Origin: a virus
Virus record (IMG/VR): IMGVR_UViG_3300037826_000110
Coordinates: 1-56,674 of that record
DNA length: 56,674 bases
Strand: one strand, 5' to 3'
Part shown: positions 1,452 to 44,679 of the stretch, in pieces
Numbering within the stretch: position 1 is the first letter of the stretch
Layout: each line of letters begins with the position of its first letter
Made by a program: the position numbers and the translations under genes
Notes under the pieces: model-generated
Told to the model about the DNA's origin: nothing
Database searches by the model: none
What the model saw: the letters and a program-made list of their open reading frames with translations, nothing else

Positions 1452-4400
1452 GCTCCCTCCATTTGCTCACTAAGATTCCGATATACACGCCGCTCCAGGC
1501 TGTGCAGCTCCCCGCGCACGGTCTCCATGTCCTGCGCGCGCATGCCGCTGAAACTGGCTTGAATCGGAATATTGATACTGATGCGCCGGCCGCCGTCGCT
1601 CTGCTGGGCCGTCATGGAGGCTAGCAGGCTATCTTGCGTCAGCGATCCTCCTGCAGCCGCCTCGGCCATGCGCGTGGTGGACGGCGTGAGTACGAATTCG
1701 CCCGCATGCACGTCGGCCAGTCCCGTGATAGGGATGTAGCCGCCGCGTTGATAGGAGCCGGAGTATTGCGTGTACTGGTCCCAGGCGCTCATGCCGTCGC
1801 CTGTGCTACCACCACCGTAGCCGCTGGACGGCGTGGGAAGATTGGCAATGTAATCTTGCCAGATGGAGCGATTGGCCTCCAGCCAGGCCTTGGTGTCCTC
1901 CAGCATCGCCGCGTGATACTGCTGCTGTTGCTCCTCGGAGCGTGAGTAATATTCCAACTCGGCGTTGATCTTGTCGAAATATTGCTGTTTCAGGCGCGCC
2001 ATATCCTCCTCGTGCTCGGCCTGCATCTCGGCCACTTGCTCCTGATGCTCTAGGATGCGTTGCTCGCGCTGCTCTTGGTATTGCGCTTCGGCGTCCAGCA
2101 TATCCTGCTCGTATTGCTGTTGGCGCTGGGCGCGCTGTTGTTCGTATTGTTGCTGGCGCTGGGCTTGCTGGTCAGCATAGTCCTCTTCGGCGCGTGATTT
2201 TTCCTTCTCGTGCTGCCGCCGCTCGCGGATCAGGCCGTAGGCGTCGCGGGAGGCAATGAGGTCCTGTTCGCGGTCCTTGAAATCCTCCTCCATGCGGCGC
2301 ATGCGTTTGGCGTGCTCGGCGGCGTCCTGCGCCTGGCGCTCCTGATGCTGACGCTCGGATTCAGCCTGGCTTTCGTGGAATTGTTGCGTGCGTTGCTCGC
2401 GGCTGGCATAGTAATCGCGCTCCATCTGCGCCAGATCGTCTTGGAGCTCACGGTTGACCTCGGCGAGTTCGGCGTTGAAGTCTGTGACGGCTTGCTCTTG
2501 CTCCTGGAGCATCTCCACGTACAGTTTGGCGGCGTTGACCTCGGCGTCGGTGAGTTGAATGGTATCTTGGGCGGTGCGGTTGTACTCATAGAGATTGTAG
2601 GTGTGGGTCGCGGTGACCTCGGCGGCCTCGGTCTCGGCACGGGCCAACTCAATCCACTTCTGGTCAAAGTCGTCGATGCCGTCGCCGCTGGCTAAGGCCG
2701 CCTCGATGCCCGCTTGTAATTCTTCCAGTTCAGCTAGCTTGTCCACCATGGCCGTCGCGGAGAAGGACTGCACCGGTCCCATCAAATCCTTGATGATCTG
2801 GCCCTGGTCCCCGGCGCCGAAGGCGCCTTCCCAGAAGTCGCGGTCCAGGAAGGTGAACATGCCGGTGTCTGGCCCCACGACCTCGTTCAGGGCCGCGATC
2901 TGCTCGGTGAGGGTGCCTAGCTCGGCACGCAGTTCCTCCTCGCTGAGGCCGGCGAATTCCCCGAGGCGTGCTTGTCCGGCGGCTACGCCTTCTTCGCGGG
3001 AGAACCAGCCGCCGATGCCCTGGCCGGTGAGGGCCTGGGAGCCGATACCAGCAATGGCCAGCGCGCCCATGGTGCGTCCTAGCAGGCTAGCGACGTTGAG
3101 GGCGGAGGATTTCTCGATCTGCGCTTCTTCCAGCGCGCCGCTCTTTTCGATCTGGGCTTCCTCGACGGCACCGGCTTTCTCAATTTCGCCTTCCTCGACA
3201 GCGGATTGCCGGACGATTTGGGCGAATTGCTCGGCGGCGGAGACGACGGTGGTCTGGAATTGTTGCTCGGCTGAGGGGCGGCCTTTCATGGCGGCTTCAA
3301 AGGCAGTGAGGATACCGCGAATAAGATTAGCTGTCTTGGTGGCTATAGTGAGAGCACCAAAAACAGCACCAAGACCTATGGCTCCGGCCCCTATAGCAGC
3401 ACCAGCCTCGACAATCCAGGGATAACGTTCCGTCATTTGCGTAATTTCATCCAGAAAATCAGCGCCTTGCTCCAAATATGGCAGGGCCATATCGAGTCCT
3501 TGCTGGCCGATCGTCAACCACAACGACTTCCAGCGCATCTTGGCCTGCTCTACGCGGTAGACGTCGGATTCCTCCCAGTCGCCGACCTTCTGCTCCCAGG
3601 TATCCAGCGCCGTCTGGCCCAGGTCCTCGGCACGCGCTTCTAAGGCGTTGACACCCTCCTCGCGGGCTTTGGTCTGTTCGCGGATGAGCTGGATCATGGC
3701 GTTGAGTGCGTCCGTCTCGAAGACTTCGCCCAATGTCGCGCGTCGTTGTTCGTCGGTCATGTCGGCGGTCGCGGCGGCCAGCATATCCACCGCTCGGGCC
3801 ATGCCGATCCAGTTACCTTCCTGATCGAAGAACGGCTGCTGTACGCCAAAGAGGCGTTCCAGTTCGTCCGCTGCGGCTGCGGTGGGGGTCGCCAGGTTCT
3901 TATACACCGAGCGCAGGGATGTACCGGCCTGCGAGCCCCGGATGGCGTTATCGGCCAGAACGGAGAGCTGCGCGCCCACGTCCTCAATGGATTCGCCCAA
4001 CGAGGCCGCATCGGTGCCCACGTATTTAAAGGCTTCGGCGACGTGGTCGATCTCGGCTAGAGTGTCGTCGGAGACTTTGTTGAATACGGAGACCACGCGC
4101 GTGGTATCCGCTAACGATAACTCGAACTGGTTGATTGAGGCCGTGGTGGCGTCGGTGACGGTGCCAATGTCGGCTTGTCCCAGCATGGCCAACTGTTGCA
4201 CGGGGGCCGTCTGGGAGAGCAGCGCGTTGAGATCCTCCTGGGTTTCGACGAGCTGCCCAGTGGCTGTGGCCCAGGCGGTGACACCCTGCGCGGTGGACTC
4301 TGGATCCAGGACGGCCAGATCCGCCGACAAGTTGACGATCCCCTCCGCCATACGGTCGCTCATCTCGCGATTGAGGCCCAGCGCACGGCTGGCCGCGTCA

Positions 4401-23815: not shown

Positions 23816-24715
23816 CTACTGATAGGGGCACTCGCCCGGGATCAGGGGGCTAGGACCATTGGGGAAGGACACGATCTTGTGCTGCAATAGTCCGCGATAG
23901 ATCGTCCCCGCTATCCTTGCGGCCTCATCTTCGCCCGCGTCCACCAGATCCTTGATGTAGCGCTCCATCGCGCTGGCTACCGAGCGGGCCTTGCGCATCG
24001 AAGGAAGCTCGTCATCCACCGGAATCACCCGGTCCGGTCGCGCTTCCTCCTCCGCAGCGCGCACATCCTGGACCTTGGTCATAAAGGTGGCCATATCGAA
24101 CATCGCTTCCTGCGCCTGCTCTTCCAACAATCTCGCGCAGAGCTTGCGAAACTCTTTCAGGCGCGGGGTATCCACCTCCGCCAGATAACGCAGAGCAATG
24201 CGCTGCCGATTGGTATCCAGGTCGCGAAGCGCATACGCATATTTGATGCCCATCTGCCCGTCTTTGACTAATTTCTGAGCCTCGGGCACCGTATCCAAAA
24301 GCGCCAGTCGCAAGCGCACCCGCTGAGGACTCACGTTCGCAATCTTGGCGACCTGTTTGGCGTCCCAGCCAAATTTCTCCATCCGTTTTTGGTAGGCGCG
24401 CGCTTCCTCAATCGGATTCAGTTCGTTGCGTTGCACATTCTCCAAAAGCATGACGGAAGAGGCTTGCTGATCCGAAAGCGTGCGCACCAAGGCCGGAATG
24501 GTCTCGCGCTCCAGGAGGCCAAAGGCCCGCCAACGCCGTTCACCGGCTACCACCTGAAAGCGCTCCCCCACCGGTCGCAAGGTGATGGGCTGCGCGAGGC
24601 CGTGCTGCTTGATGCTGGCCGCCAGTTCCTGCAGGCTCTCTGTATCAAAGTCCTGGCGATCATTATCGCCGGGGTCAATTAGGACCATCCGTATATCCTG
24701 TATCTGCTCTTGCAT
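23816..24715 (-). CDS. parB: ParB/Spo0J-family partition-type protein
   Basis: I choose ATG 24715 (MQEQIQDIRMVLIDPG) because CACGGAGGTG precedes it; the longer frame would include ribozyme copy 3. The 299-aa product has the ParB CTP-binding box GERRWRA (58-64), the ENVQRNELNPIEEA segment (92-105) and a helix-turn-helix (WDAKQVAKIANVSPQRVRLR). True ParB clamps load on ~16-bp palindromes (parS) and spread. No ParA was found, so it may work with the ParM/ParR set, in gene control, or through the nine dispersed palindromes. Confidence 0.85.
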   Translation of the reverse strand: MQEQIQDIRMVLIDPGDNDRQDFDTESLQELAASIKQHGLAQPITLRPVGERFQVVAGERRWRAFGLLERETIPALVRTLSDQQASSVMLLENVQRNELNPIEEARAYQKRMEKFGWDAKQVAKIANVSPQRVRLRLALLDTVPEAQKLVKDGQMGIKYAYALRDLDTNRQRIALRYLAEVDTPRLKEFRKLCARLLEEQAQEAMFDMATFMTKVQDVRAAEEEARPDRVIPVDDELPSMRKARSVASAMERYIKDLVDAGEDEAARIAGTIYRGLLQHKIVSFPNGPSPLIPGECPYQ

Positions 24716-24737
24716 TCTCTCACACCTCCGTGGTTTA

Positions 24738-24811
24738 TGATCTGCCTTATCAATAATCGGGCGATCAATCCCGATTAGACGCCGGGGACTCCCGGCGTTT
24801 CGGCTATAACT
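24738..24811 (-). ncRNA. Type II hammerhead ribozyme-like RNA, copy 3 (54-aa gene / ParB junction)
   Basis: GCC, GAAA, stem III ACGCCGGG/CCCGGCGU, GUC (24780-24778), stem I UAAUCGGG/CCCGAUUA, UUGAUAA, GGC. Here loop I has UGAUC and the 3' tail has GAUCA: both sides of the pseudoknot changed together relative to the other copies (UGACC/GGUCA). Predicted cut is between 24778 and 24777. Confidence 0.8.
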
Positions 24812-24968
24812 CATGGCGTTGCGCACGTCCAAAAGCGCGCAATTCGTAGTATCCGATCACACATCCGCCCACCTCGATAGTGAAACGCTGCGCATCGCAA
24901 TACCACGCATAATCCTCAGCATCACGCACATCCTCAAAATACACGCCTTCCACATTATACAATTCCAT
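24804..24968 (-). CDS. Unknown 54-aa protein
   Basis: ATG 24968 with CACGGAGGTGTAAGA upstream, the same context as its neighbours. The 54-aa product begins MELYNVEGVYFEDVRDAEDY, is acidic with a CVIGYYELRAFG strand, and ends at a TAG inside the 5' edge of ribozyme-like element 3. No family is recognised. Confidence 0.65.
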   Translation of the reverse strand: MELYNVEGVYFEDVRDAEDYAWYCDAQRFTIEVGGCVIGYYELRAFGRAQRHEL

Positions 24969-29277: not shown

Positions 29278-30036
29278 TTAAGTTGTTATCCCAATACTTC
29301 GCGCACTGCCCGCCATCAAATCCAGATACGTCGCGTAGATATCCAGGTCGTGCGACATCACCAAGCGATACACGTACTGCGCGGCATACGTAGCCACCGC
29401 CTGATTGATCATCAAGCTCTGCGCATCCCGTATAGTCAGCTCCGCGCAGGACTCGGCCTCCGTCGCTGGCTGATCGGGAACCAAGAGCTCCGGATGCTGC
29501 ACGGTGGGGAGGGGAAGATCCAGACAGTGCCCGGCCTCGATGCTGGGCAATTTGCTGTTGGTCGTGTTCCCCAGTAGGACCTGACCGCTGGCCTCGTGGT
29601 TACCGCAGTCCAACCACCAGACGAGCCGCGAGGAATCGACGATGGCCTCGTGAATGGCCTTCCGGGCGGCAGCGTTATCCACCGCGCCCACGACCAGCGT
29701 GAACTGGTGACGCTTGGCGGTGATAAAGTCTGACTGGAATTTCTGCGGACGACACTGAATCCGCAGGCCGAAAGCCGTGCTGTACCGGCGTGTCAATGCG
29801 ACGGCCTTGTTACGTCCTATCTCGGCGGGGGCGAAGTTCTGCCGTCCGATGTTCTTTTCCTCCACGACGTCGGGATCGCAGAAGGACAACCGAACGTCTT
29901 TGCCCTGCGCGTGATAGGCCAGGCGCGCTAGGTGCAAAGCCAGGAATGAGCCGGTCCCTCCGCAACCCACCAGGAGGATATTGTACGCGGCGGGATCCCC
30001 GACTAGGACAGGGTAGCGTCTCTCCGGCCTATCCAC
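29278..30036 (-). CDS. ThiF/E1-like activating enzyme (PRTRC ThiF-like)
   Basis: GTG 30036 has GGGAGG 7 bases upstream and gives 252 aa. It has an adenylation Rossmann motif (ILLVGCGGTGSFLALHLARL), FCDPDVVEEKNIGRQNF and DCGNHEASGQVLLGN. The end is SCAELTIRDAQSLMINQAVA, close to the pattern of PRTRC-system ThiF proteins. E1-like enzymes adenylate the C-terminus of a ubiquitin-like protein. Neighbouring genes encode JAB, E2-like and ubiquitin-like proteins, so a full conjugation pathway is likely. Confidence 0.8.
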   Translation of the reverse strand: MDRPERRYPVLVGDPAAYNILLVGCGGTGSFLALHLARLAYHAQGKDVRLSFCDPDVVEEKNIGRQNFAPAEIGRNKAVALTRRYSTAFGLRIQCRPQKFQSDFITAKRHQFTLVVGAVDNAAARKAIHEAIVDSSRLVWWLDCGNHEASGQVLLGNTTNSKLPSIEAGHCLDLPLPTVQHPELLVPDQPATEAESCAELTIRDAQSLMINQAVATYAAQYVYRLVMSHDLDIYATYLDLMAGSARSIGITT

Positions 30037-30256
30037 GCCGCGCCTCCCGCTCGGCCTGCAATCGGGCACGCTCCTGATCTACTACGCGCCATAGGTCGCG
30101 GACCTCTTTCTGCAATGCGCGCGCCTGCACGGCCAACTCGTCGAAACGCTGGCGTATCTCATCATCGCGACCGCCAAGGCGAACGACGGAGCGAATGTAA
30201 TAATCCAACGTACCCAAATCTATGTACGGATACGTGTTGTCATCTGGGTTTTGCAT
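30029..30256 (-). CDS. Small coiled-coil protein
   Basis: A 75-aa protein. After a short N-terminal part (YPYIDLGTLDYYIRSVV) it is a continuous charged coiled coil to the end. The stop overlaps the ThiF start by 8 bases. It could be an adaptor for the E1/JAB proteins; no known family. Confidence 0.55.
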   Translation of the reverse strand: MQNPDDNTYPYIDLGTLDYYIRSVVRLGGRDDEIRQRFDELAVQARALQKEVRDLWRVVDQERARLQAEREARRG

Positions 30257-30264
30257 GGTTCCTC

Positions 30265-30882
30265 CTAAAACGGAATAGTGCGATTATGGACATCCTCAAA
30301 TGGCCATGCCCCGGTGAACAGTGTCTCAATAGCTACATTACCGTAGTCACCGTAGACACCCACCCGCAGACACATCTGCGGGCGCTCGTCGAAGATCCGC
30401 CCGATCACACCATAGAAACGCAAGCCTTGCTCGTCGCGGGTATCCTCGCTGGAAAAGAAAACGTTCATCTGGTGATGGCTGTGGATGTCGGCGATGATGT
30501 CCGCGTCATCGCCTCCCTCGTAGGTCAGGCGCGCACTGCCGGCCTGTTGCGACGGTCGCCACACGCTGACCAAGCCGTCACGCAGCACGAGGTGATACAG
30601 AACCTCACGCGGCCCCTCGCGGGCCACGCTGCGCGCGTTGACCAGGATCTGACGCAAGAGAATGTTTTGGATGGGGCTGAAGTCTAAGTCCACAAACGGC
30701 TCTAGCTTCGGCAGTCCAGCCACGCGACACGCCGCGACCTGAATGCAGGCGGTGAAGTGCCGCGCGCGGGCTAACTTGAAGATGCCATTGCCCGCGAGCA
30801 CGTAGGCGTAGGCTTTCCCCGACGACAAGCTCGGGGTATGGCCATTATGCATCAGATAATCTACGGGATTCGGTAACATCAT
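30265..30882 (-). CDS. JAB/JAMM isopeptidase (PRTRC protein A-like)
   Basis: About 205 aa, starting in the stop of the E2-like gene (ATGATG overlap); an ATG three codons earlier lacks a ribosome binding site. The JAMM motif is complete: HSHHQMNVFFSSED (H-x-H-x7-S-x2-D), followed by DTRDEQGLRFYGVIG, as in PRTRC system protein A. In eukaryotes and bacterial ubiquitin-like systems such peptidases trim or remove ubiquitin-like proteins; maturing the Ub-MazG fusion is a natural inference. Confidence 0.8.
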   Translation of the reverse strand: MMLPNPVDYLMHNGHTPSLSSGKAYAYVLAGNGIFKLARARHFTACIQVAACRVAGLPKLEPFVDLDFSPIQNILLRQILVNARSVAREGPREVLYHLVLRDGLVSVWRPSQQAGSARLTYEGGDDADIIADIHSHHQMNVFFSSEDTRDEQGLRFYGVIGRIFDERPQMCLRVGVYGDYGNVAIETLFTGAWPFEDVHNRTIPF

Positions 30883-31583
30883 GCCTCCCATAAGTGCCGA
30901 AGGGCCAGGTTACTATGTCTCAGGTCTTCAAGGGGATATTCATCCGCACCGACCACGACAGGATCGCGCCACATCGCGATGATGCTCTCCTCGTATTTCT
31001 TGGATTTGCCGTCTTCCAAGTCGTGATTGAACTGGCTAGCGAAGAACATTTCCGCAGCCTCACAAATCGTTTCCACCGTGCAAGCCGGGAACGGGACATC
31101 CCCCTGGCACACACGTCCGTCGCGCCAGATGTTTGGCGCGGGGAAATAGTACAGTGGTTCCCGTCCGGCTGCGGGGTAACGCCGGACCGCGAAGATCCTG
31201 TACGTGCGACCCTGCCCTACGAAAACGGCCGGTGGGAAGGGTACACGCATGTCCACCACTTCACCCTCATGGTACAGCTTCACCGTGCGCACCTGGGGAG
31301 GGCGATATATACCCAAACGCGGTTGTGCCCCCAGATCACAAAACAGGCAATTGCGGGGCAGCAACCCCGACACTATCGGCAGCCCGGCCATCGAGGCCGC
31401 CAGAGCATCCGGCGATACCTCGTAGCACTGCGCGACGTGCCCATGCTCAAAGCGCGTCATCACGATGGACTCGTCGTACAGGTCCAGGCGCATGCGCAGC
31501 GCCTGGCGTTGCTCTACGTCCACCCCGGTCCCTGCGAGACCCAAGGCAGATAGGTGTTCTATTTTTCCATTTTCTGGTTCCAT
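30879..31583 (-). CDS. E2-like protein (PRTRC protein B/Prok-E2_D-like)
   Basis: A 234-aa protein with GGAGTAAATAAA before ATG 31583. The middle and end match PRTRC protein B: PFPPAVFVGQGRTYRIFAV, YYFPAPNIWRDGRVCQGDVPFP and AEMFFASQFNHDL. The Cys in GRVCQG is the candidate catalytic cysteine of this E2-like family. Together with the JAB and ThiF genes it forms a ubiquitin-type relay. Confidence 0.75.
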   Translation of the reverse strand: MEPENGKIEHLSALGLAGTGVDVEQRQALRMRLDLYDESIVMTRFEHGHVAQCYEVSPDALAASMAGLPIVSGLLPRNCLFCDLGAQPRLGIYRPPQVRTVKLYHEGEVVDMRVPFPPAVFVGQGRTYRIFAVRRYPAAGREPLYYFPAPNIWRDGRVCQGDVPFPACTVETICEAAEMFFASQFNHDLEDGKSKKYEESIIAMWRDPVVVGADEYPLEDLRHSNLALRHLWEA

Positions 31584-34144: not shown

Positions 34145-35614
34145 TCACGCCGGGGCGCGATCTTCCTCAGATTCCTGCTCAAATATATCAATGCCTATTT
34201 CCTCGCGGATCATTCTAGCCATCACCGAGGCCAGGTGCCCTAGGTCACTCTTGTCTATGGCCCCGGGCCGTCCGGGCTTTCCCACCGAGACGGTGACCGC
34301 CAGATCCTCCGGGCTTTCCCCATTCTGGGGTACGTCGATGCGGGCCGTGAGAATAATTTGCGGCTTGGGGGGAGGCGGAGGGGGCACCGCTGGCCTTGAT
34401 GATGCCGGCGGCGGCGATTGGGGCTCACTCAGCGTCCCCACCGCAACCCCACACCGCGCGTTATTCGCAATCCCCGCATCCTGCGCCGCGTCCACCGGCG
34501 CGCTGGCTATGTGCTCCGGAGCCGATAACTCATGCTCTTCCGGCTGCGGATTGCCGGCGCGTTCCCAGCAATCGGGGCAGATGTTGATGCCCGCGAAGCG
34601 GTACCAATCGCGCTCTTTGTCGTTGGCGACCTCGGTACCGCAGGCGCGGCAGCGGGTCCAGAACGTCGGGCGGTGCGTTTTCCACCCGGCGTGCTGCTCG
34701 TACATGCGCTTGGCCAACGCTGGTCCTTCGACCTGCTTCTCGAAGGTCGTGCTCTTGAGCTCAAAGCACGTCCGCCAAGAGCAGCGCAACTCCCGACCGA
34801 TCTTTGTCGCATACCGGCATCCCGCGCAGGCATGCATGATGCCGTTGCCGGGGACCTGGGGTTTCATCTCTGGCTCCCAGTCCATGGCCCACGGTGCACC
34901 ATCGAGGGAGGCCGTCTCCGTCTCGATGTGGCGCTTGACGGCCATCTCCACGTCGACCACGCTGCGCTCATGGCCCAGGAGACGCATGTACGTGGGCTTT
35001 TCCTCACCAAGGGCCACCAGGGGTAGCAGTGCCCGGGCGTGCCGTTCGCCCAGACCCCGCGCCACCTCATCCTGGATGAAGTCGGGGAGTTGCAGGAGGC
35101 GCAGTTTGTTGGCTACGGTGCTCTGACTGAGGCCCCAGCGGTTGCCGATCTCCGCCTGGGTCCAGCCAAATTTTTCCCCCGCCATCTGCATCATGCGCGC
35201 CTGCTCGATAGCGTTGTTGTCCTCGCGCTCTTGATTTTCCTGGAAGGCGATGTCGGCCATGGCCTCGTCGTCCAGTGCCTTGAGGTCGACGGGGAACGTG
35301 GCGTATGTGGTGTCGCTCTGCGCGCTGAAGGTCTCGTGAATCAGTCGGAAGGCGCGCAGACGCCGATGGCCGGCGGCCAGTTGGATCTCCAGCCCTTCAC
35401 GACGGCCGTCCTCGATCCGCGCCACGGCCTCGGCGGGATCCAGGACCTCGCCGTTCAATAGCGCCCGCGCCGGGGGGACGTGGATTAGGCCGCTGGTTTC
35501 GGGAAGCTCGTGGCGCATTTGTAAAATTGAGTTCTCCAGGTCGGCGGTGTAGTACTTCATCCGCGCCTGGAATGGATTGTCACTGATCATCTTATTTGCT
35601 ACTCTGGTAATCAT
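34145..35614 (-). CDS. ParB-family protein with zinc-binding C-terminus (PRTRC ParB-like)
   Basis: A 489-aa protein with GGAGGCAAAACCG before ATG 35614. It has a ParB CTPase-type box GHRRLRA (82-88), ENQEREDNNAIEQARMM and a helix-turn-helix (WTQAEIGNRWGLSQSTVANKL). A Cys-rich part follows (CAGCRYATKIGRELRC, then CRACGTEVAND, then CPDCWERAG), probably two zinc sites, and a Pro-rich region. ParB next to ThiF/E2/JAB/Ub-like genes defines PRTRC cassettes. A palindrome copy lies 23 bases upstream. Confidence 0.8.
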   Translation of the reverse strand: MITRVANKMISDNPFQARMKYYTADLENSILQMRHELPETSGLIHVPPARALLNGEVLDPAEAVARIEDGRREGLEIQLAAGHRRLRAFRLIHETFSAQSDTTYATFPVDLKALDDEAMADIAFQENQEREDNNAIEQARMMQMAGEKFGWTQAEIGNRWGLSQSTVANKLRLLQLPDFIQDEVARGLGERHARALLPLVALGEEKPTYMRLLGHERSVVDVEMAVKRHIETETASLDGAPWAMDWEPEMKPQVPGNGIMHACAGCRYATKIGRELRCSWRTCFELKSTTFEKQVEGPALAKRMYEQHAGWKTHRPTFWTRCRACGTEVANDKERDWYRFAGINICPDCWERAGNPQPEEHELSAPEHIASAPVDAAQDAGIANNARCGVAVGTLSEPQSPPPASSRPAVPPPPPPKPQIILTARIDVPQNGESPEDLAVTVSVGKPGRPGAIDKSDLGHLASVMARMIREEIGIDIFEQESEEDRAPA

Positions 35615-37839: not shown

Positions 37840-38281
37840 GGTCCCCTCCGTTGGTGCGGAGAATGATTTTCCGTGCCAGGTCTCGGCGAACGTAATCCCA
37901 GCGTCCATCTGCCTCGAACGGGACGGCTTTGTCGATGCTGTCGATGACGGCCAGGATGTGGCCGGCCCACTCTTCGATGGGCGGGATGCGAAAAACCATG
38001 TGGCCGTCACAGCCACAGGAGATGAGTTGGAAGTTGGCTTGAGCCGCACACTTGAGGAGCTCAGAGCCGTGGGTGACGCTGAGCAGGGACATGGCTTCTT
38101 GCCCCTGGTCGCCCAGTTCATACGCGGCGTCCAGTTCGGCGCGCAGGCGGGCGATCTCTTCCTCGGCGGCGTCGAGGTCTGCGGCCTGGGCGTCGCATAT
38201 GCGTTCGGTTTCGCGGAGTTCGCGGGCCAGGACGCGGACGGCGACGCGGTCTTCGGTTTCGATGCGTGGGAGGCGGGTCAT
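37814..38281 (-). CDS. Unknown coiled-coil protein
   Basis: A 155-aa protein. Residues ~15-60 form a coiled coil (RELRETERICDAQAADLDAA) and the C-terminal half has ISCGCDGHMVFRIPPIEEWAGHI, a soluble alpha/beta part. It overlaps both neighbours (4 and 26 bases). No known family. Confidence 0.55.
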   Translation of the reverse strand: MTRLPRIETEDRVAVRVLARELRETERICDAQAADLDAAEEEIARLRAELDAAYELGDQGQEAMSLLSVTHGSELLKCAAQANFQLISCGCDGHMVFRIPPIEEWAGHILAVIDSIDKAVPFEADGRWDYVRRDLARKIILRTNGGDHGNDSDAH

Positions 38282-38838
38282 CGCGCACCCCCCGCGGCCA
38301 TGGCATAGGGGCCGTAGCTAAGGATTTCCGTGCTGGGGATTGTGTTGCCGTCTACCGGTTCGGCCCAGATGGTCCAGTCTGGCGGGGCTGCGCAAGGATT
38401 GGGGATCATGCCGATGAGGGCCTGGACGTGTTTCTGCTGGGCGCGCCGGATGTTCCAGAACTCGCGGGGATTGAGGTCGTTCTCTGTGACGCAGTCCCCG
38501 CAAAGGTACAGAGGTGCGTACTGGGGGCGATCCTGATGTTTGCCATCGGCGAAGGGCTCGTAGTAAATGCGGAGTGCTGTAGTTTCCAGGACCACGGCTC
38601 CGCAGCGTTGACATACGCCGTTGGCCATGGGCCAGTAAAACGGGCCGCCGTTGGTGACGTAGTCGGCATGCCAGTCCTTCATGAATTTGTCATGGCGGAG
38701 GATCTGGCGTGCCTCGCCGTATGATACGACATAGTGGTAATTCTTGGTGCGACCGTTCAGGCTAATGGTAAGGTGCAGAACACCTTCGCTTGCCTGATGG
38801 TCTTTAGCGAAGCTTTGTGCGATCTCTCGCGGTTTCAT
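38278..38838 (-). CDS. Zinc-binding protein, first gene of the long leftward operon
   Basis: A 186-aa protein with two CxxC pairs (CQRCGAVVLETTA and LCGDCVTEND), a probable zinc site, and a Tyr-rich N-terminal half. AATAGGAGGTAGTTACA precedes ATG 38838. A ~210-base untranslated leader separates it from the promoter at 39056-39084, and part of that leader can mask this ribosome binding site. No known family. Confidence 0.6.
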   Translation of the reverse strand: MKPREIAQSFAKDHQASEGVLHLTISLNGRTKNYHYVVSYGEARQILRHDKFMKDWHADYVTNGGPFYWPMANGVCQRCGAVVLETTALRIYYEPFADGKHQDRPQYAPLYLCGDCVTENDLNPREFWNIRRAQQKHVQALIGMIPNPCAAPPDWTIWAEPVDGNTIPSTEILSYGPYAMAAGGAR

Positions 38839-38844
38839 TGTAAC

Positions 38845-38932
38845 TACCTCCTATTGTGATAAGTTTCTTGTTGAGAAGCCCTCGCCGGTGCGGTTTGGCG
38901 GTTGCCTCTCTATTGTGGTACAATAGGAGGTA
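38845..38932 (-). promoter_or_regulatory. RBS-masking leader switch
   Basis: In the mRNA, TACCTCCTATTGT (38932-38920) is a perfect 13-base complement of ACAATAGGAGGTA (38857-38845), which holds the ribosome binding site of the gene at 38838. Between them, ACAATAGAGAGG (38916-38905) can pair with the same anti-RBS segment through ACAATAG. Two exclusive folds are possible, one open and one closed. A large hairpin (GACCCTCGA...TCGAGGGTC, ~38969-39003) lies further upstream. Confidence 0.6.
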
Positions 38933-39055
38933 ACCCTCGGTGCCGCTATTCCCGGTGCCTTGGGCTAGACCCTCGATTGGGAGCCGTTACTCCCGTCGAG
39001 GGTCGCTTGCTATAGAAAAGCCTCAGTCTGTCCTTTTCCCTTCGCAAGCACTTAT

Positions 39056-39084
39056 ATTGTACCATAGCTTGATTTTTTTGTCAA
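39056..39084 (-). promoter_or_regulatory. Strong leftward promoter
   Basis: -35 TTGACA (39079-39084), 17-base spacer, -10 TACAAT (39056-39061) on the minus strand. It drives the operon from 38838 leftward and is divergent from the promoter at 39147-39175. Confidence 0.8.
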
Positions 39085-39113
39085 TACCCAAATTTTCCTC
39101 CGCTACAAGTAGT

Positions 39114-39129
39114 TATTTCCCAGGAAATA
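39114..39129. repeat. Dispersed palindrome, copy 6 of 9 (between divergent promoters)
   Basis: TATTTCCCAGGAAATA, centre CA. It lies between the two divergent -35 boxes, 29 bases from the leftward and 17 from the rightward one, which is a natural operator position. Confidence 0.85.
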
Positions 39130-39146
39130 GCCATAGAAACTGCCTA

Positions 39147-39175
39147 TTGACATTTAAAAGCGGATATGATACAAT
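39147..39175 (+). promoter_or_regulatory. Strong rightward promoter
   Basis: -35 TTGACA (39147-39152), 17-base spacer, -10 TACAAT (39170-39175). Transcription should start near 39180-39182, right at the first hairpin of the structured RNA. Confidence 0.8.
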
Positions 39176-39179
39176 AATA

Positions 39180-39299
39180 GTGCTTACAACGTAGTAAGCA
39201 CCTATCAAGTGTGTAACGGCACACGCTAGGTAGTCGCCGGGATAGCGGCGGTCGATTCTGCTCATGCGATACGACCCCCGCACCCTGCGGGGATTTTTT
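39180..39299 (+). ncRNA. Compact structured small RNA or attenuating leader
   Basis: About 120 bases with successive hairpins: GTGCTTAC/GTAAGCAC (8 pairs, loop AACGTA), GTGTG/CACAC, CGCCG/CGGCG, GTCG/CGAC, and a terminator. It starts at the promoter's expected start point and ends in T6, with no credible ORF. It could be a free small RNA (for example a copy-number regulator) or the attenuated leader of the rep operon. Confidence 0.6.
39276..39299 (+). terminator. Intrinsic terminator before the HTH/rep genes
   Basis: CCCCGCA (39276-39282), loop CCC, TGCGGGG (39286-39292), then ATTTTTT. It lies between the rightward promoter and the first rightward gene, so that gene needs read-through or another start. 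Confidence 0.85.
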
Positions 39300-39329
39300 A
39301 ATCACTAGATACCAACAAAAGGAGGTCGT

Positions 39330-39599
39330 ATGGGCATAGCTATCATCCGGGAGGATTTTCAGATGAAAGACACCAACCTAGTTACGGTTAGCGATGCCGC
39401 AGAGAAAACCGGTTACACAGGAGCATTCATTAGACTTATAGCAAATCAGGGCCGAATCAAGGCCAAGAAGTTTGGCTATATGTGGCAAATCGACCTTGAT
39501 GACCTTCTCTCTTACAAAGAGAAGATGGATCAATTAGGTAAGGAAAAACATGCGCTACGCTACGACGGCGACGACGAACCCGCAAACGAAACAGGATAA
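39330..39599 (+). CDS. Small HTH protein (excisionase/MerR-like fold)
   Basis: An 89-aa frame. Two starts have good ribosome binding sites: ATG 39330 (AAAGGAGGTCGT) and ATG 39363 (GGAGG, 8 bases before), the latter giving 78 aa. The core reads LVTVSDAAEKTGYTGAFIRLI then KKFGYMWQIDLDDLLSYKEK, the winged-helix excisionase/HTH_17 pattern. It is first in the rightward plasmid operon and may regulate rep or the divergent promoters. Confidence 0.7.
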   Translation: MGIAIIREDFQMKDTNLVTVSDAAEKTGYTGAFIRLIANQGRIKAKKFGYMWQIDLDDLLSYKEKMDQLGKEKHALRYDGDDEPANETG

Positions 39600-39694: not shown

Positions 39695-41143
39695 ATGAAA
39701 ATCACAGAAGCAACACCGCAGCAAAGAAACAACGCTCCCTTTGTGACGCATATGACTGCCAGGAACATCGGCAAGGGGTACGCCGAGACCCTAATACTAA
39801 TCGCCTACTATCTCCCGGACGGCGACGTCCTAGAGGGAACTAGCGAAGAATTCGGTGCAGTCTTCGACATTCACGAACGCAGCTTCAGGAATCATGTCAA
39901 GGCCCTATCACGAGCCGGATGCCTACTTTACACGAAACCAGAATACGGGCTATACAAAATCATAAGAATTTCACAGACAGAAGAGGAACTAAACACCCTC
40001 GTCGATTGCTGGAATTTCATTCCAGATGAGATCAAAAAGCGCGATGCGTTGGATTTTGTCACGTCTGCTTTCCTGTCGAAATGGAAAGAATTTTCCGAAA
40101 GTGGGGGGGAATGGAAAGAATTTTCCACCTTAGAGGAAGAGGCACCGGAAGCAAAACGGAAAGAATTTTCCGAAACTCCGCAAAATGGAAGAAATTTTCC
40201 AAGTTCAGACGAAGAGGAGCAAGGCGAGGAATGGAAAGAATTTTCCGAAAGTGGGGGAGAATGGAAAGAATTTTCCAACTCGGATGGCGAAAGACGGAAA
40301 GAATTTTCCGTAACCCCCATTGAACGGAAAAAAATTTCCGAAAGTGGGGGGAAACGGAAAGAATTTTCCGAAAGCGATCCCCCTGTTGTTGTTATTAATC
40401 ATGATCATGTCTTTGAGAGACAATTTTCTAAAGATAAAAAACAACAACAGCAAGCATCTGAGCCACAAAACGGCGATTCAGCGCAGGGGTTTGCGTCGAA
40501 CGATTTTTCCGAACGTCAAAAGCTTGCCTTGAATGCTCTGCGTTCCGTGCGTGTGGGTCGCAATGCACAGCGTGAATTCATACGCGACCATGATCCGCAG
40601 CGCATCCTAGACGTCGTTGCGGCGGCGAAGGTTGACGCAACCGTCAAAAACAAAGCGGGGTATGTGTGCAAGGCCCTCCGCGAAGGGTGGGAGATCGCGG
40701 TGCCGAAATCCGAGCCCGAGAAACGTCAGGAAAAATGGGCCGGATGGGAACAACAAAACGCCCAAGCCACCGCGCGCCTGCATCAAGCGGTCGCCGCTGC
40801 CGCCGAGCAATCCGGTAACGGCAACGGGGGCGAATCTGCCAAGATCTGGCGCGGCGTCCTGGGTGAACTGGAGCTCCAGATGACCCGCGCGACCTTCGAC
40901 ACCTGGCTGCGGGATACAAACTGCCTGGGTCGGGAGGATAACGGCGACGGTGAGACGCTGATCATCGGCGTGAAGAACGGCTACGCCGTGGAATGGCTAG
41001 AACATCGGCTGTACACCGTCATCCAACGCACACTCCACCGCGTCGTGGGGCAGCACACAGAGGCGCGCTTCGTTGTCTGGGATGAGGAAGCGCAGGAAGT
41101 CACAGAGCCGGCCTTGGAGCCGGTCACAGGAGGAGTAGGGTGA
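39695..41143 (+). CDS. Replication initiator: winged helix, iteron-encoding region, DnaA domain I-like C-terminus
   Basis: A 482-aa protein. Residues ~20-100 form a winged helix (AETLILIAYYLPDGDVLEG, FDIHERSFRNHVKALSRAG) as in phage/plasmid initiators. Residues ~128-226 are a repetitive WKEFSESGGE-type linker whose DNA is a set of iterons. Residues ~380-465 resemble DnaA domain I (KIWRGVLGELELQMTRATFD, LIIGVKNGYAVEWLEHRLY). DnaA domain I recruits the replicative helicase, so this protein probably binds its own gene and loads host DnaB. No phage polymerase or helicase was found in the genome. Confidence 0.75.
   Translation: MKITEATPQQRNNAPFVTHMTARNIGKGYAETLILIAYYLPDGDVLEGTSEEFGAVFDIHERSFRNHVKALSRAGCLLYTKPEYGLYKIIRISQTEEELNTLVDCWNFIPDEIKKRDALDFVTSAFLSKWKEFSESGGEWKEFSTLEEEAPEAKRKEFSETPQNGRNFPSSDEEEQGEEWKEFSESGGEWKEFSNSDGERRKEFSVTPIERKKISESGGKRKEFSESDPPVVVINHDHVFERQFSKDKKQQQQASEPQNGDSAQGFASNDFSERQKLALNALRSVRVGRNAQREFIRDHDPQRILDVVAAAKVDATVKNKAGYVCKALREGWEIAVPKSEPEKRQEKWAGWEQQNAQATARLHQAVAAAAEQSGNGNGGESAKIWRGVLGELELQMTRATFDTWLRDTNCLGREDNGDGETLIIGVKNGYAVEWLEHRLYTVIQRTLHRVVGQHTEARFVVWDEEAQEVTEPALEPVTGGVG
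40083..40369 (+). repeat. Nine iterons inside the rep gene (candidate replication origin)
   Basis: Copies of GGAAAGAATTTTCC begin at 40083, 40113, 40158, 40187 (variant), 40233, 40263, 40296, 40326 (variant) and 40356. Spacing is mostly 29-33 bases or about 45, roughly whole helical turns. An AT-rich stretch follows (40384-40455). Iterons within the initiator gene followed by AT-rich DNA mirror the lambda ori inside gene O. Confidence 0.75.
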
Positions 41144-43620: not shown

Positions 43621-44679
43621 ATGCTTAGAATATTATCGTATATTTTCGTAGTAGGCGGCATTATCGCCGGGCTAGTAGCTTGTGGCGCGGCCTCGTCACA
43701 ATGGCCCCAGGCTACCCGCAGCGATTTCGACATCCTGGCGGAGGCACAGCAGATCCGCGAGGATGAGCAGTTCAACATCCTCTCCCGGGCTAGGGAGATC
43801 GAAATGCAGTTCACGGCTACGGCCGAGGCTGCCCGCGCCACCACCACCGCCGAGGCCTACCGCGTGTGGGCCGAGCAGGCTAAGGCCGAGGCGACTGCAA
43901 CGGCTGTCGCTGCCCAGATCCGGGCCACGGCCACTGCCGAGGCCAACTACATCCGCGCGACCGCCACCACTGAGGCTGTGCGCGCCACGGCGACCGCGGA
44001 GGCCGTGCTATTTGCGCAACAGGCTACTGTCACCGCGCAACAGTGGATGGAACGCGCCACGGCGACGGCGGAGGCGCAACGCCTTAATGCGATAGCTACC
44101 ACCTCCGCCATTTACGCTCAATCCACGGCGACGGCGGTGGAGGTGCGCAAACGCGAGTTGCAACTAGAACGGGAGGAGAATATGAACCAGGTCCGGGCTA
44201 TGATCCCCTACGGTATCATCATTCTATCAGCAGGCGTAATCCTGTGGGGGGCGGTGCGTTTGATCATGGCCGTTGAGTTGCGGGTGCGTGCGATTCCCCG
44301 TGATGAGCGCGGGGATGCGCCGGTGATGATGCTCTCCTTCCGGGGCGCCACGTATGCCTACGACCCGGATCGGGGATTCGGGCCGGTGACCATGTTCACC
44401 GCCGAGGGAGCCGCGCAACCGGCGATGGCACGTGAGGAGATCCAAGAGCGTGTCACCGCCAGGGACCAAACCGTGGACCTGGTACATCGGGGATTCGAGG
44501 GGCAAGGGGGCCGACGTCGGCGGGTGACAGCACAGCAGGCGGGGGAGCTGATGGCGCAGCCGGCCTTGCCCGGCCCGGTGCACGTCGTGCCTCCGGAGCA
44601 GGTGGGGCGTTGGCTTAAGGATGTTGAGCCGCAGGCTATGGCTCAATTAGTGGAGGGGGAGGTATTGAATGATAAATAA
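43621..44679 (+). CDS. Lipobox protein with ATAEA repeats and a central membrane helix
   Basis: A 352-aa protein with AAGGAGGAGGGG before the ATG. The N-terminus ends in a lipobox (LVAC-G, ~residue 21). Residues ~60-175 are repeated ATAEA/RATATAEA units forming an alpha-helical stalk. A second membrane helix (YGIIILSAGVILWGAVRLI) spans ~195-215, and a cytoplasmic C-terminal part follows (~135 aa). Ala-Thr-Ala-Glu repeats are common in Chloroflexota surface proteins. It may anchor the FtsK-like ATPase. Confidence 0.65.
   Translation: MLRILSYIFVVGGIIAGLVACGAASSQWPQATRSDFDILAEAQQIREDEQFNILSRAREIEMQFTATAEAARATTTAEAYRVWAEQAKAEATATAVAAQIRATATAEANYIRATATTEAVRATATAEAVLFAQQATVTAQQWMERATATAEAQRLNAIATTSAIYAQSTATAVEVRKRELQLEREENMNQVRAMIPYGIIILSAGVILWGAVRLIMAVELRVRAIPRDERGDAPVMMLSFRGATYAYDPDRGFGPVTMFTAEGAAQPAMAREEIQERVTARDQTVDLVHRGFEGQGGRRRRVTAQQAGELMAQPALPGPVHVVPPEQVGRWLKDVEPQAMAQLVEGEVLNDK

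Follow-up and report, generated by a model that had tools for sequence, protein, structure and literature searches.

Two related structured leader RNAs on divergent phage promoters as candidate put-like antiterminators

The put RNAs of phage HK022 are the textbook example of an RNA that reprogrammes the polymerase that made it, without the involvement of a protein factor. In phage lambda, the nutL and nutR sites (boxA-boxB), which act with protein N, show identical hairpin loops on changed stems in divergent transcripts. A structural study from 2022 presented an alignment of ten known put sequences (PMC9378689). The known put structure includes a G12-U32 pair, and mutation of A9 or of G35 impairs put (PMC9378689); put binds to the beta' zinc-binding domain, and beta' Arg77 is a contact residue which wedges into the RNA. 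For the present comparison 11 lambdoid put RNAs were gathered, from HK022 (putL and putR), HK75, HK639, O276, PDP110P2, UPF_BP1, phiEt88, S9-5, CobraSix and PdC23; all of the put relatives found come from enterobacterial phages. The bases invariant among the 11 are GAACGGC.C and GUCGG, followed after exactly six bases by GGCG.GG. Some put relatives are unannotated or overlap a hypothetical-protein annotation, as at 1768-1836 in Pantoea phage PdC23 (L201) and 1797-1871 in CobraSix (L198).

The stretch of DNA analysed here, referred to as the window, is a single IMG/VR virus record of 56,674 bases. The proteins recognised in it are a terminase large subunit, ParB, RadC, a ParM-like actin, an FtsK-like ATPase and an HNH nuclease. 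The terminase has more than 100 relatives among viral contigs, and others occur in genome bins of Chloroflexota, in one Desulforudis bin and in one Omnitrophota bin; judged by these matches, Chloroflexota are the likeliest host phylum. The region of interest contains two divergent operons:

38278..38838, minus strand: first gene of the leftward operon, encoding 186 aa of no known family
39056..39084, minus strand: leftward divergent promoter, TTGACA-17-TACAAT with TG before the -10 box
39147..39175, plus strand: rightward promoter, TTGACA-17-TACAAT with TG before the -10 box (-35 at 39147-39152, -10 at 39170-39175)
39330..39599, plus strand: first gene of the rightward operon, encoding an 89-aa HTH_17/excisionase-type DNA-binding protein
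39695..41143, plus strand: rep-like gene; its product has a DnaA_N domain at the C-terminus, and seven iteron-like repeats lie inside the gene (40078-40377)

The rightward operon runs HTH-rep-ParM. Its opening genes, an HTH/excisionase-type protein followed by a rep gene with iteron-like repeats, support the reading of this locus as a phage control region. This arrangement recalls cro...O of lambda, where the origin lies inside O. The seven palindromic copies at 40078-40377 (plus strand) are built around GGAAAGAATTTTCC, lie within the rep gene, are spaced mostly by 30 or 75 bases and have an AT-rich stretch on their 3' side; they look like origin iterons located within the gene for the initiator, as in lambda O.

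Exact matches to TTGACA-N15-19-TACAAT number two in the window, against 0.03 expected. The rightward one, of the extended -10 type, matches the consensus at 11 of 12 positions and stands directly before the 8-bp hairpin at 39180-39201, as an earlier note on this DNA had described. The second exact copy, absent from that note, lies 62 bases away and points in the opposite direction; from their position, both promoters are probably early. Between the two -35 boxes, at 39115-39128, is a near-palindrome, ATTTCC-CA-GGAAAT, a possible shared operator of both. On the plus strand, opposite the leftward leader, 38895-38932 holds a third site resembling a promoter, TTGGCG-18-TACAAT, and after it AGGAGGT, the latter created by the anti-Shine-Dalgarno (anti-SD) sequence of the minus strand.

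The leader transcribed from the rightward promoter has the following parts, all on the plus strand:

39180..39201, plus strand: hairpin P1, GUGCUUAC-AACGUA-GUAAGCAC, 8 bp, at the presumed 5' end
39202..39233, plus strand: hairpin I with UAACGG(C); AACGGC at 39215-39220 is the loop sequence of put hairpin I
39236..39240, plus strand: GCCGG, counterpart of put GUCGG and possible pseudoknot partner of the loop
39245..39281, plus strand: stem II, GCGG-C-GGUCG...CGACC-C-CCGC, mutually exclusive with the terminator, which it overlaps
39269..39276, plus strand: AUACGACC, a weak complement of the HTH gene's Shine-Dalgarno/start region (GGUCGUAU, 39324-39331)
39276..39299, plus strand: intrinsic terminator, CCCCGCACCCTGCGGGG-ATTTTTT

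Three further statements of the earlier note hold for this RNA. It was said to be a chain of stems ending in a terminator, and about 100 nt of it are strongly structured (fold z = -4.96, reached by 0/200 shuffles). It was said to lack a protein-like frame, and no ORF of at least 60 aa lies within it; the one listed ORF that touches it, at 38940-39194, ends inside the first hairpin. This 84-aa frame spans both promoters and was judged to be no gene. Finally, the RNA was placed just upstream of the HTH/rep operon, and a Shine-Dalgarno sequence and the small HTH gene do follow directly behind the terminator. The order of promoter, RNA, terminator and gene is also that of type III toxin-antitoxin systems, a candidate rejected on the grounds that no repeat array is seen and that the downstream gene encodes an HTH protein.

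The opposite promoter drives a 214-nt leader (fold z = -7.16) upstream of the 186-aa gene:

39005..39049, minus strand: P1 of the leftward leader, GCUUGC...GCAAGC; the transcript begins GUGCUUGC
38968..39004, minus strand: hairpin I, loop UAACGG on a 5-bp stem with compensatory changes relative to the plus copy
38890..38956, minus strand: ACCGG-GAAUAGC-GGC core (7-nt spacer) and an extended stem II-like hairpin (38946-38890)
38920..38932, minus strand: UACCUCCUAUUGU, complementary over 13 nt, without mismatch, to the ribosome-binding site further downstream (ACAAUAGGAGGUA, 38856-38844)

The earlier note had offered two functions for the rightward RNA, copy control or attenuation of rep, and it is the second which fits. 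This RNA shares the strand of the HTH/rep operon, which it directly precedes, and its terminator competes with a stem of nearly equal energy. A countertranscript role in copy control is disfavoured: rep and this RNA are transcribed in one direction, the opposite promoter points away, and no promoter antisense to the RNA was found. With a divergent twin leader, the likely function moves closer to antitermination and to a paired control of the two operons.

A related proposal is that of a trans-acting, terminated small RNA, either an immunity RNA of the C4/CI type or a copy-control RNA, which would pair with its own operon's ribosome-binding site. A strong promoter and terminator would indeed yield a discrete RNA of about 120 nt, and, as in the immunity RNAs C4 of P1 and CI of P4, a structured RNA encoded in a leader is complementary to a downstream ribosome-binding site. 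In the plus leader this complementarity comprises the eight contiguous bases of AUACGACC, and the twin carries its longer anti-SD sequence; but the former is weak, being equalled in 58/2000 shuffles, and is partly buried in a hairpin. Moreover, the Rfam C4 family is unmatched, processing and action in trans are putative here, and an RNA of the same sense as rep is no countertranscript. We regard this proposal as improbable.

Stem II of the plus leader uses the 5' arm of the terminator, so that the two folds are mutually exclusive, and their predicted energies are -54.2 and -55.1 kcal/mol (a difference of 0.9). When the upstream sequence was shuffled, 19/400 and 34/400 shuffles were as close, making the competition mildly unusual. 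Taken alone, the near-equal energies are therefore only suggestive of a switch, as 5 to 9% of shuffled upstream sequences come as close. The 13-nt anti-SD sequence of the minus leader is equalled by 0/2000 shuffles, and its strand is predicted to be able to form an alternative, local hairpin during transcription.

These two features bear on the main rival reading, in which the leaders would be attenuators of the sensor type: a shared hairpin domain would bind a phage protein or small molecule, with the terminator as rightward and sequestration of the ribosome-binding site as leftward read-out, and RNA polymerase would not itself be acted upon. The joining of one conserved domain to two different platforms farther downstream is typical of riboswitches and of autogenous leaders, including those of the ribosomal-protein type, in which a structured domain precedes control of a terminator or ribosome-binding site. 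The nearly isoenergetic folds and the anti-SD match unrivalled in shuffles are in keeping with it. However, the alternative fold of the plus leader is just mildly rarer than in shuffles, no Rfam riboswitch or leader family scores above its gathering threshold for either leader, the setting is that of phage operons, and the resemblance of the core to put, together with its placement, is left unexplained. This reading is accordingly considered rather unlikely.

The kinship of the two leaders is apparent at several points. Both transcripts start with GUGCUU[A/G]C, with G[U/C]AAGC as the stem partner in each. Both have a hairpin loop UAACGG on a 5-bp stem, GUGUG/CACAC in one and GGGAG/CUCCC in the other, and share CCGGGA(A)UAGCGGC on the 3' side of this hairpin. 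The window holds 234 hairpins with six-base loops and at least 5 Watson-Crick pairs; only two have the loop UAACGG, one in each leader, and the sharing of any such loop was seen in 0/3000 shuffled leader pairs. All 11 stem pairs compared are kept between the copies, three of them through changes on both sides, a compensatory count which by itself is non-significant (65/500 shuffles) and comes from two sequences only. A plain alignment of the leaders is weakly above chance, 27/1000 shuffles scoring as high, and the case for their relationship therefore rests on the pattern of a loop with compensated stems and on the order of the elements. The leaders are real, structured, paired and related, and they stand on divergent promoters.

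The weak alignment, along with the shared promoter and start sequence, would also suit ordinary insulation, in which a leaky terminator would follow the promoter, the hairpins would be incidental and the twins would resemble each other through partial duplication of the promoter region. Identity of the loops on compensated stems and the match to the put core both argue against this, and it is thought very improbable. Another parallel is provided by the lambda nut sites. If the UAACGG hairpins were analogues of boxB, recognised by an N-like antitermination protein of the phage, both divergent leaders would be expected to have the same loop on changed stems. Yet neither leader has a clear boxA (judged by eye), the 186-aa product of the first leftward gene belongs to no N-like or other known family, and no recognisable N is present. 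The RNA here is also longer and more complex than nut, and the conserved CGG-6-GGCGG part would go unexplained, so that a nut-like function is credited with little likelihood.

It was the pairing of RNAs on divergent operons of a phage that suggested a comparison with HK022 put. As in HK022, where putL lies just behind PL, two related RNAs lie downstream of divergent, probably early promoters. Each has a 5' hairpin with the AACGGC loop sequence, a [G/A]YCGG strand further downstream that could pair with it, GGC(GG) after a spacer of 6 nt in the plus leader and 7 nt in the minus leader, and a second long imperfect stem. A template, GAACGGCNC-gap-GUCGG-N6-GGCGG, was built from the 11 puts with no information from the window. 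When both strands of the 56.7-kb record are scanned, the best match to it is at 39214 on the plus strand, inside the plus leader, with two mismatches in 18; 0/5000 shuffled leaders contained a site as good, and in a control scan of HK022 the template recovered putL and putR. The minus leader fits it no better than do shuffles.

In the plus copy, exactly 6 nt separate GCCGG from GGCGG (39247-39251), the spacing of put RNAs. The one mismatch of this part, GCCGG for GUCGG, keeps the pairing, as G12-U32 of put is replaced by G-C. Counterparts of A9 and G35 exist in the element. In the minus copy the core reads ACCGG-7-GGCAC; with ACCGG in place of GUCGG, pairing with the final C of AACGGC is lost, but in this copy that C sits in the hairpin stem. 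A put covariance model (11 sequences from a narrow clade) gave the plus leader 8.9 bits, with an E-value of 2.2 and rank 3 window-wide, and E = 0.021 when limited to the 551-bp control region; the minus leader was undetected, and neither leader scored significantly window-wide. Rfam silence on the leaders says nothing about put, since HK022 put itself gets no Rfam match.

There are differences from put as well. The leaders have an additional 5' hairpin, P1, which lacks a put counterpart; the invariant closing G of GAACGGC is U; stem II overlaps the adjacent terminator; anti-SD elements are present; and the phage genome is a very different one. The GYUCA-GGA-DGARC hairpin of put stem II and the GGCAA strand with its essential A64 are absent from the plus leader, and a GGCAA in the minus copy may be incidental. 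The position of beta' Arg77 is occupied by Asn in the three Chloroflexota genomes checked and by Arg in the Desulforudis and Omnitrophota bins. The leaders are accordingly described as put-like, and formal membership of put is not claimed.

On balance, the reading preferred here is that the two leaders form a put-like, cis-acting pair of antiterminators on divergent phage operons, combined with local attenuation, a reading to which we give about an even chance. Hairpin I would display its AACGG(C) loop, the downstream (G)CCGG strand would pair with that loop, and the extended stem II would follow. By analogy with HK022 put, the nascent leader would then dock on the transcribing RNA polymerase, which could pass terminators. 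In the rightward leader stem II would take the 5' arm of the immediate terminator, folding thereby choosing between a terminated RNA of about 120 nt and transcription of the full operon; in the leftward one the region 3' of the element could sequester the ribosome-binding site of the first gene. Polymerase binding, antitermination and regulation by the leaders are what we infer from the features described.

A bolder form of this proposal, put forward tentatively and thought doubtful, is that the pair represents a divergent branch, found in phages of uncultured bacteria, of factor-free antiterminator RNAs acting on RNA polymerase. In this phage the element would be fused to a terminator having one strand in common with stem II, and to sequestration of a ribosome-binding site, one element setting both the elongation mode and the local expression of two operons. 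If confirmed, the rare put trick would extend past lambda-like phages; the occurrence of such a pair in an unrelated phage would mean that the solution is not confined to enterobacterial phages, and such distant sequences would help to define the key bases. Should the part about the polymerase prove wrong, the twin leaders still suggest a coordinated RNA switch at a divergent phage control region.

The main weakness of the case is that related virus records and some 800 genomes yielded no homologues of the leaders by which covariation across phages might be followed. A covariance model built from both leaders found 0 matches in 49 related virus records, 0 in 398 genomes from the phylum of the Desulforudis bin, and in 400 Chloroflexota genomes two marginal, chance-like matches, one being OTC-like coding sequence. 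A looser pattern of the put core, adjusted after the window had been seen and with a chance rate estimated very roughly at one per 15 Mb, was as frequent in 400 Chloroflexota genomes as its reversed control. Relatives sharing the terminase, ParM or FtsK genes carry different leaders in their control regions, and searches of phage collections with the leaders and flanking proteins gave nothing useful. Scans of IMG/VR for the UAACGG...GGGAUAGCGG pair and for the promoter with the start sequence gave matches which look like chance, lying within genes, in 16S-like sequence or without hairpins.

One viral contig, L183, was rejected as a relative, its promoter and start being identical and its RNA different. 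At 2840-3001 (minus strand) this unrelated contig has TTGACA-N16-TACAATATAAGTGCTT and then an RNA upstream of a small ORF. The RNA has two mutually exclusive long stems, GCTTAGGGACA/TGTCCCTAAGC and GGGCCTTGCGG/CCGCAAGGCCC, and is possibly another switch.

Elsewhere in the window, a PRTRC-type gene set is carried at 29278-31583 on the minus strand, in which PRTRC ThiF scores above the curated cut-off and PRTRC A (JAB) and PRTRC B below it. Two genes for ParB-like proteins, at 34145-35614 and 23816-24832 (minus strand), are grouped with this set. The protein encoded at 43621-44679 (plus strand) has many ATATAEA-type repeats between hydrophobic segments, and its counterpart in a related contig (L018) adjoins the FtsK-like gene.
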